From Candidatus Gastranaerophilales bacterium (GTDB lineage Bacteria; Cyanobacteriota; Vampirovibrionia; Gastranaerophilales; Gastranaerophilaceae): a DNA stretch of 59,808 bases. The notes beneath the pieces are model-generated. The model was not told where the DNA came from, searched no databases, and worked only from the letters and a program-made list of their open reading frames with translations. Every line of letters begins with the position of its first letter. The stretch's first letter is position 1. Positions 3,438-4,963 of the stretch are shown here, piece by piece. The stretch is taken from contig CALUTL010000012.1 of assembly GCA_944323655.1 (NCBI GenBank), forward strand, positions 1-59,808, in the 5' to 3' direction. The translations under genes and the position numbers were made by a program.

Positions 3438-3550
3438 CGATAAGATTTTAAAAGACCGAAATTAACCCAAAACAAATATTACTAAAGTCGTAATATATAT
3501 TAATACAATATTTGATTTTAAAAATTTTTGGTTGTAAACTGTTTCTTAAT

Positions 3551-3682
3551 GGAACAGGCCGGGTCGGAATGAAAAAACTTACCGGCTGGTAAAACGGAGA
3601 AGTCAGTCTGAGAAATTTAACCCCGTTTTCTCGGATACAAATTCAGACTGGAAGAACCGGTAAAAATACAAATTAAGGAGAA
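3551..3682 (+). promoter_or_regulatory. Structured leader RNA upstream of metK, candidate riboswitch
   Basis: The 5' leader of metK contains several mutually consistent helices. An 8-bp stem pairs CAGTCTGA (3604-3611) with TCAGACTG (3643-3650). A closing helix pairs GCTGGT (3585-3590) with ACCGGT (3656-3661). AAAACGG (3591-3597) can pair perfectly with CCGTTTT (3623-3629) inside the 8-bp stem's loop, a 7-bp pseudoknot. An upstream hairpin GCCGG (3558-3562)/CCGGC (3582-3586) competes with the closing helix. The ribosome site (aaggag, 3675-3680) lies 14 nt after the closing helix. SAM synthetase genes are often controlled by SAM-sensing RNAs. This sequence does not match the SAM-I, SAM-II or SMK consensus that I know. 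Confidence 0.55.
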
Positions 3683-3688
3683 TTTGAA

Positions 3689-4963
3689 ATGACACCAAAA
3701 AACTTTTTATTTACTTCTGAATCAGTAACAGAAGGCCACCCCGACAAAGTATGCGATCAGATTTCTGATGCAATTCTGGATGAATTTTTAACAAAATACC
3801 CACAATCGAGAGTTGCTGCAGAAACAACGGTAACAACCGGTATGGCGCTTGTATGCGGTGAAATTACTGCAGACTGCTATGTTGATATCCCGTCAGTTGT
3901 AAGAAATACAATTAAGAATATCGGTTATGTAGGCAGAGAAGGCGGCGGATTTGATTACAAAACCTGCGCAGTATTAACAAGTATTGATGAACAGTCTTGT
4001 GATATTGCAGGAGGCGTAAACAAAGCGCTTGAATCTCGTTCAAACAACGCTGCAACTTCAATTTCTGAAACCGAAGACATCGGCGCAGGAGATCAAGGTA
4101 TAATGTTTGGGTATGCTTGCAACGAAACGCCTGAATTAATGCCTTTGCCAATCAGTTTAGCGCATAAATTATCATACAGATTAGCGCAGGTAAGAAAGCA
4201 AGGTATTTTAAATTATCTTAGACCTGACGGCAAATCACAGGTTACTGTTGAATACGTTGACGGCAAACCTTCAAGAATACATACAGTTTTAATTTCAACT
4301 CAACACGACCCTGAAATTAACGGAATTTCAGATAATGAAAAAGTTCAGGAAATCATAAAAAGAGATATTACAGCATTTGTAATTGACGAAGTTTTCGCAC
4401 ACGAAGAAATCAAACTTGACAGCGAAACCAAAATTCTTGTAAACCCGTCAGGAAGATTTGTAGTTGGCGGTCCTCAGGGAGATGCTGGTTTGACCGGACG
4501 TAAAATCATCGTCGACACATACGGCGGATATTCTCGCCACGGCGGCGGCGCTTTCTCCGGAAAAGATCCGACAAAAGTTGACAGATCTGCGGCTTACGCT
4601 GCAAGATACGTTGCGAAAAACGTTGTTGCATCAGGACTTGCTGAAAAATGCGAAATCGAACTTGCTTACGCAATCGGTGTTGCTGAACCTGTATCAATTA
4701 TGGTTGATACTTTCGGAACAGGCAAAATTTCTGATGATGAGATTTCTAAACTTGTTTCAAAACACTTTGATTTAAGACCGGCTGCAATTATTAAGAAATT
4801 CGATTTACGCGGACTTCCTGCCAAAAACGGCGGTAAATTCTACCAGTTATTAGCGGCTTACGGACATATGGGAAGAACAGACTTCTTTGTTCCGTGGGAG
4901 CAAACAGACAAGGCTGACGATTTAAAATCAGAAGTTTGCGCGTGCGGATGCGCGCTTAAATAA
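3689..4963 (+). CDS. metK: S-adenosylmethionine synthetase
   Basis: MetK makes SAM from methionine and ATP in the cytoplasm. Signature segments are [16 protein letters not shown] near residue 16, [15 protein letters not shown] near residue 132, [20 protein letters not shown] and [20 protein letters not shown] (P-loop-like). At 424 residues it is longer than the roughly 384-residue E. coli enzyme. The extra length lies before GAGDQG and near the C-terminus, as I recall for cyanobacterial MetK. The last residues are Cys-rich (VCACGCALK). It has a good ribosome site and its own terminator, and is preceded by a structured leader, so it is probably a single-gene unit controlled through the leader. 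Confidence 0.97.

Follow-up and report, generated by a model that had tools for sequence, protein, structure and literature searches.

A conserved leader element predicted to form a pseudoknot with the Shine-Dalgarno sequence of metK in Gastranaerophilales: a candidate SAM riboswitch

The window considered here, a 59,808-nt stretch of a Candidatus Gastranaerophilales genome of 1.95 Mb (G000), carries metK, the gene for S-adenosylmethionine (SAM) synthetase, behind a leader that raises the question of whether the RNA itself senses SAM and, if so, which part of it does so. The gene is as originally predicted: translation starts at the ATG at 3689, and all three SAM synthetase Pfam domains are present in its product. 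The original prediction also placed the core of a possible riboswitch in an 8-bp hairpin, with a pseudoknot formed by its loop and a closing helix around it. These pairings can all be read from the sequence: CAGTCTGA at 3604-3611 pairs with TCAGACTG at 3643-3650, CCGTTTT at 3623-3629 is the reverse complement of AAAACGG at 3591-3597, and GCTGGT at 3585-3590 can pair with ACCGGT at 3656-3661 (6 bp, including two G-U), with the ribosome site AAGGAG (3675-3680) lying 14 nt past 3661. The leader as a whole has an unexceptional fold (-32.8 kcal/mol, z of -1.49, with 12 of 200 shuffled sequences equally good). (The minimum-energy fold contains a pairing of CUUAAU at 3545-3550 with AUUAAG near the Shine-Dalgarno sequence; it varies in relatives and was set aside.) Since the single-sequence fold is unremarkable, a comparison across relatives was needed to decide which pairings matter.

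A DNA search of 99 related genomes yielded two conserved islands, one at query positions 19-47 (window 3558-3586) and the other in the region of the Shine-Dalgarno sequence and start codon, between which the sequence varies freely. Unlike the fold energy, the conservation of these two islands clearly exceeds what chance would give. In order, the extracted leaders have a GCCGG-GUYGGAAUnAAAAnMCUUA-CCGGC block, a linker, AAAUUAAGGAG, and the metK start. The features of the window, all on the + strand, are as follows.

3512..3540, + strand: predicted promoter TTGATT-N17-TAAACT, from a scripted search in motif-bearing leaders
3558..3562, + strand: 5' strand of helix P1, GCCGG, in which pairs 1-3 covary with 3582-3586
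3563..3576, + strand: loop 1, GUYGGAAUnAAAAn, the likely ligand pocket, from alignments and short-loop variants
3577..3581, + strand: 5' strand of the predicted pseudoknot helix, MCUUA (ACUUA in the window, CCUUA in most relatives)
3582..3586, + strand: 3' strand of P1, CCGGC, covarying with 3558-3562
3587..3673, + strand: loop 3 (the linker), 87 nt in the window, containing the hairpin 3604-3611/3643-3650
3674..3678, + strand: Shine-Dalgarno strand of the predicted pseudoknot, UAAG(G), from the conservation of UUAAGGAG in motif-bearing metK leaders
3689..4963, + strand: metK, SAM synthetase (424 aa; Pfam S-AdoMet_synt_N, _M and _C), the controlled gene

Helix P1 encloses a 19-nt loop, GUYGGAAUnAAAAnMCUUA, and the evidence that this helix is maintained as RNA structure comes from covariation. 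Pair 1 is found as GC, AU, UA, or CG, pair 2 as CG, UA, or GC, and pair 3 as CG or UA. Within an alignment of 66 distinct rows, which include a single false match, 31 cells are compensatory, compared with 6.8 in shuffled alignments, and none of 500 shuffles reaches the observed value; 96.3% of P1 cells are paired, against 11-56% when the register is slid. On a tree of the MetK proteins, pair 1 changes 19 times, pair 2 changes 6 times, and pair 3 changes once, and so the substitutions represent repeated events; the presence of the motif itself changes just 3 times. Within the loop, the GUYGGA portion is nearly invariant, and relatives may do without the A-rich middle, as the short-loop variants L002, L143, and L147 do. 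The most divergent metK leader, L147 (1452-1489), has P1 as GCGG/CCGC together with its shorter loop. In this same leader, the G/A opposition that closes the loop is reversed to A/G, a swap hinting that a conserved non-canonical pair may sit atop P1.

The same comparison bears on the pairings between P1 and the ribosome site. The length of loop 3 is bimodal: most species have 8-16 nt, the others 40-87 nt. Every long linker folds into a single hairpin, in most cases with greater stability than shuffled sequences, but the sequences of these hairpins are unrelated. Among the leaders read, the 8-bp hairpin of the window recurs only in the nearest relative (G001/L082), and the CCGTTTT pseudoknot and the closing helix occupy a region that is just 8-16 nt long in most relatives, so that none of the three belongs to the anatomy of the element. 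The upstream hairpin (3558-3562/3582-3586), which had been cast as a competitor of the closing helix, does pair; it is the conserved, covarying P1. Thus the covariation expected of a riboswitch is found in the upstream hairpin, whereas the 8-bp hairpin and closing helix are not conserved. The model in which the linker hairpin and CCGTTTT pseudoknot form the aptamer, with the upstream hairpin as an alternative state, can point to pairings that exist in the window and mostly in G001 as well, and to a z of -2.04 for the linker folded alone; nevertheless, almost every relative lacks this region or has other sequence in its place, whereas the upstream hairpin is retained and covaries, and the model is, on these alignments, largely refuted and has very little probability left. 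Because the linker is variable and its hairpin confined to the nearest relative, the 8-bp hairpin is best regarded as a lineage-specific insertion in loop 3 and not as an aptamer; loop 3 may tolerate such a hairpin without disturbance to the remainder of the element.

What had been overlooked is a second conserved pairing. The end of the P1 loop, (C)CUUA, can base-pair with UAAG(G), the Shine-Dalgarno sequence at 3674-3678; in the window the partners are CUUA at 3578-3581 and UAAG at 3674-3677. Such a pairing would generate an H-type pseudoknot that masks the ribosome-binding site. The sequence UUAAGGAG is present in 95 of 95 distinct metK leaders that have the motif, whereas all 23 of the family's metK leaders without the motif lack it (raw counts that ignore kinship), and among the 50 called genes of the window it precedes one, metK itself. 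The CUUA-UAAG pairs are kept in all 65 distinct rows that have letters there. The first pair of the helix is C-G in 47 of 65 rows, and most of the remaining 18 have A opposite G; the window itself has A opposite G, which leaves 4 bp, as do about one quarter of the variants. This helix is unable to covary because its 3' strand is an invariant Shine-Dalgarno site, and the sole change seen within it, A-U to G-U in L147, keeps the helix. As an isolated duplex, it is weak (-3.0 kcal/mol for CCUUA and -1.3 kcal/mol for ACUUA), which would fit a helix that closes solely upon stabilization by a ligand.

A further signal links the pseudoknot strand to loop 1. Ranked by corrected mutual information, the top four column pairs comprise the three variable pairs of P1 and the combination of column 8 (Y of loop 1) with column 20 (M, the first pseudoknot position), the last ranking next after P1 pairs 1 and 2. 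The combinations seen are C..C or U..A, and the two columns co-change on the metK tree, although with few pairs the sign test is non-significant. A loop 1 base that touches the pseudoknot pair would account for this coupling; in the SAM/SAH riboswitch, G16 contacts C21-G47 (PMC7367207). At the level of sequence, then, the alignments establish P1, the conservation of its loop, the loop/Shine-Dalgarno complementarity, the co-occurrence of that complementarity with the motif, and the gene context, and we hold the structure of the element drawn from them with high confidence.

It could be asked whether the conserved block acts as DNA. Its palindromic arms (an inverted repeat, CCGG-N19-CCGG) lie close to the promoter, as would be expected of an operator or promoter feature with no role in RNA. 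A site comparable to TTGATT-N17-TAAACT is found in 79 of 97 motif-bearing leaders, at a median of 16 nt from the end of the -10 to P1, and the transcription start is predicted to fall about 10 nt before P1. (In a generic promoter scan, the 3512..3540 site scored under the cut-off.) The element follows the predicted -10 box, and in those metK leaders that were read it is on the transcribed strand; furthermore, the 19-nt loop is asymmetric yet nearly invariant, and it is matched by the Shine-Dalgarno sequence over a linker of 8-87 nt. On these grounds a DNA operator is highly improbable.

The reading that we prefer is a translational switch, which is favored because a terminator scan of the metK leader found none. 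The transcript would begin just upstream of P1, and P1 would close the 19-nt loop, whose (C)CUUA would pair with UAAG(G) to form the H-type pseudoknot. Loop 1 (GUYGGA...A) would lie against the pseudoknot helix, making it the most likely candidate for the SAM binding site. When SAM is abundant, its binding would stabilize the weak 4-5 bp pseudoknot and mask the ribosome-binding site, so that less MetK is made; when SAM is scarce, the pseudoknot would open and metK would be translated. The whole element would be compact, about 40-50 nt plus the optional hairpin, and because the aptamer is only about 50 nt, a test of binding would be cheap.

The element was compared with known RNA families. With Rfam 15, a search of the whole window at the gathering threshold returned tRNA only, and a search of the leader and of a short relative (L107) at E values up to 10 listed no SAM family; the best scores were 18.4 and 18.3 bits against thresholds of 65 and 35.7 (leader region and L107). 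Thus no family fits, the SAM classes included. The description of the leader as structured, pseudoknot-capable, and riboswitch-like is supported, and relatives show covariation. (Resemblances to L31-Coriobacteria and to the hairpin ribozyme were dismissed as far under the Rfam threshold.) Searches of the literature found no work on riboswitches in Gastranaerophilales, only unrelated work for Melainabacteria, and no paper on a 'metK motif'; SAM-VII or SAM-VIII riboswitches were not named in the literature searched. No published description of the element was found in the literature covered, outside of which lies Weinberg 2017 (224 candidates).

The same fold might instead be a translational operator for a protein, either MetK or another RNA-binding protein, with no metabolite involved. 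A conserved hairpin with a Shine-Dalgarno pseudoknot before a single gene resembles autoregulatory protein leaders, and the weak, sub-threshold Rfam resemblances were to ribosomal-protein leaders, but these scores are far under threshold, and homologous metK genes in other families of the class carry SAM-I. MetK is not known to act as a repressor that binds RNA. A protein operator is therefore unlikely, and a metabolite-binding RNA is the better reading.

SAM is sensed by eight described riboswitch classes (PMC13314739), and one of the closest likenesses is to the SAM/SAH riboswitch of Rhodobacterales, an H-type pseudoknot with a P1 hairpin and a loop/Shine-Dalgarno helix that is almost always found at metK and is proposed to be a translational OFF switch (PMC7367207). 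Judged on complementarity and conservation only, the present element likewise has an H-type pseudoknot that includes the Shine-Dalgarno sequence upstream of metK. In the SAM/SAH riboswitch, however, U23 and then G24-C26, which extend P1, lie between the pseudoknot strand (G17-C22) and the P1 3' strand (PMC7367207), whereas here MCUUA abuts the P1 3' strand directly in all aligned metK leaders. The SAM/SAH pocket (the P1 extension pairs and the ligand-pairing U23) is not found in these leaders; in addition, the loops here are GUYGGA-N-A-MCUUA, the bacterial group is another one, and the Rfam model is unmatched. Because the arrangement of pseudoknot strand and P1 is absent, the element should not be filed as SAM/SAH. 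SAM-V and SAM-II are also H-type pseudoknots with a loop lining the pseudoknot helix (PMC6061858). SAM-V, described from marine alphaproteobacteria and Bacteroidetes, blocks the Shine-Dalgarno sequence and differs from SAM-II in possessing an additional helix, P3 (PMC6061858), with which the loop 3 hairpins of the present element can perhaps be compared. The SAM-V ligand is held in a triple helix of the major groove, and the Shine-Dalgarno sequence is covered by another, short helix, P2a (PMC6061858), while here the main pseudoknot helix would itself take that sequence in. Neither SAM-V nor SAM-II gave a sequence or model match. SAM-I (the S box), with a model of 108 positions and a four-way junction, has a fold unrelated to the element. 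SAM-VI and SMK (SAM-III) are compact RNAs that sense SAM and regulate metK or SAM synthetase. Neither gave a model match here; SAM-VI has its own distinct fold (PMC6914780), and SAM-III is a three-way junction (PMC6061858).

Which ligand the element would sense is suggested by the rest of the class. RF00162 (SAM-I) passes the cut-off immediately before metK in L171, L173, L179, and L181, and also in G091; four families of the class besides this one have SAM-I in front of metK, and thus the class regulates metK by SAM and SAM is indicated as the ligand. RF00162 gave no match in the window, this locus included, and SAM-I was not found at metK in this Gastranaerophilales family, within which it remains in just a few genomes. 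(The single SAM-I of the window's genome is on another contig, L254 1230-1313, G000:C6:103729-103812, and not at metK; it precedes a 140-aa open reading frame that has no Pfam match, and the open reading frame upstream of it is recombinase-like by eye, also with no Pfam match.) As the motif is restricted to one family and almost to one gene, its neighbors give no independent confirmation of SAM. Another ligand of the cycle might be sensed instead: SAH, both SAM and SAH, methionine, or MTA. SAM/SAH riboswitches are nearly all before metK and do not discriminate SAM from SAH (PMC7367207), and their architecture of P1 plus Shine-Dalgarno pseudoknot is identical. Yet for metK alone, product feedback by SAM would be the simplest logic, and a SAM sensor, SAM-I, holds the same place in other families, which makes another ligand quite unlikely.

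We infer that the pseudoknot forms in the cell, that the ligand sensed is SAM as opposed to SAH, methionine, or a protein, and that its binding represses metK. In kind, the element is a conserved structured leader with predicted sequestration of the ribosome site before a SAM-cycle gene, and we put the probability that the metK leader contains a new class of translational, SAM-responsive pseudoknot riboswitch at roughly 0.72. Taken on their own, SAM as the ligand and switching as the function are likely. It is also reasonably probable that this is a further natural SAM riboswitch class, with its own loop 1 pocket (GUYGGA...A) built on a Shine-Dalgarno pseudoknot, and that it took the place of SAM-I at metK in a single family of these gut bacteria, which are non-photosynthetic relatives of Cyanobacteria. 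If so, it would be another unrelated RNA answer, and among the smallest, in a convergence of RNAs toward one ligand at one gene. Gastranaerophilales, a group of gut bacteria, would have in it a regulator shared across the family, and SAM-I would apparently have been exchanged for another SAM riboswitch at this gene.

Searched with a covariance model, 247 of the 363 genomes sampled from this Gastranaerophilales family, representing 28 of 41 genera, contain the motif, and as a rule a genome has a single match. Among the matches listed in class-wide and phylum-wide searches with the model, all are in this family, and an exact-pattern scan of phage sequences in IMG/VR found none. With few exceptions, the matches followed up sit before metK, and several second matches proved to be metK leaders split across contig ends. 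In the family members L146, L148, L152, and L153, which do not have the motif, a common ATTAAGCTATGTAA(A/C)G lies upstream of metK and is possibly another element or a conserved neighboring sequence. Another of the second matches, in L244 (1501-1542), has the core motif with no Shine-Dalgarno match and no obvious gene downstream, and is probably a decayed duplicate of a metK leader. Finally, a divergent motif in L247 (659-702, minus strand), also a second match, has a fully compensated P1 (CGUGG/CCACG) and the loop GUUGGAAUUAAGAAACUUA, ending in GUAAGGAAUG; it lies upstream of a 75-aa HTH_17-like open reading frame that would encode a small HTH protein, which suggests that the element may be able to serve another gene.
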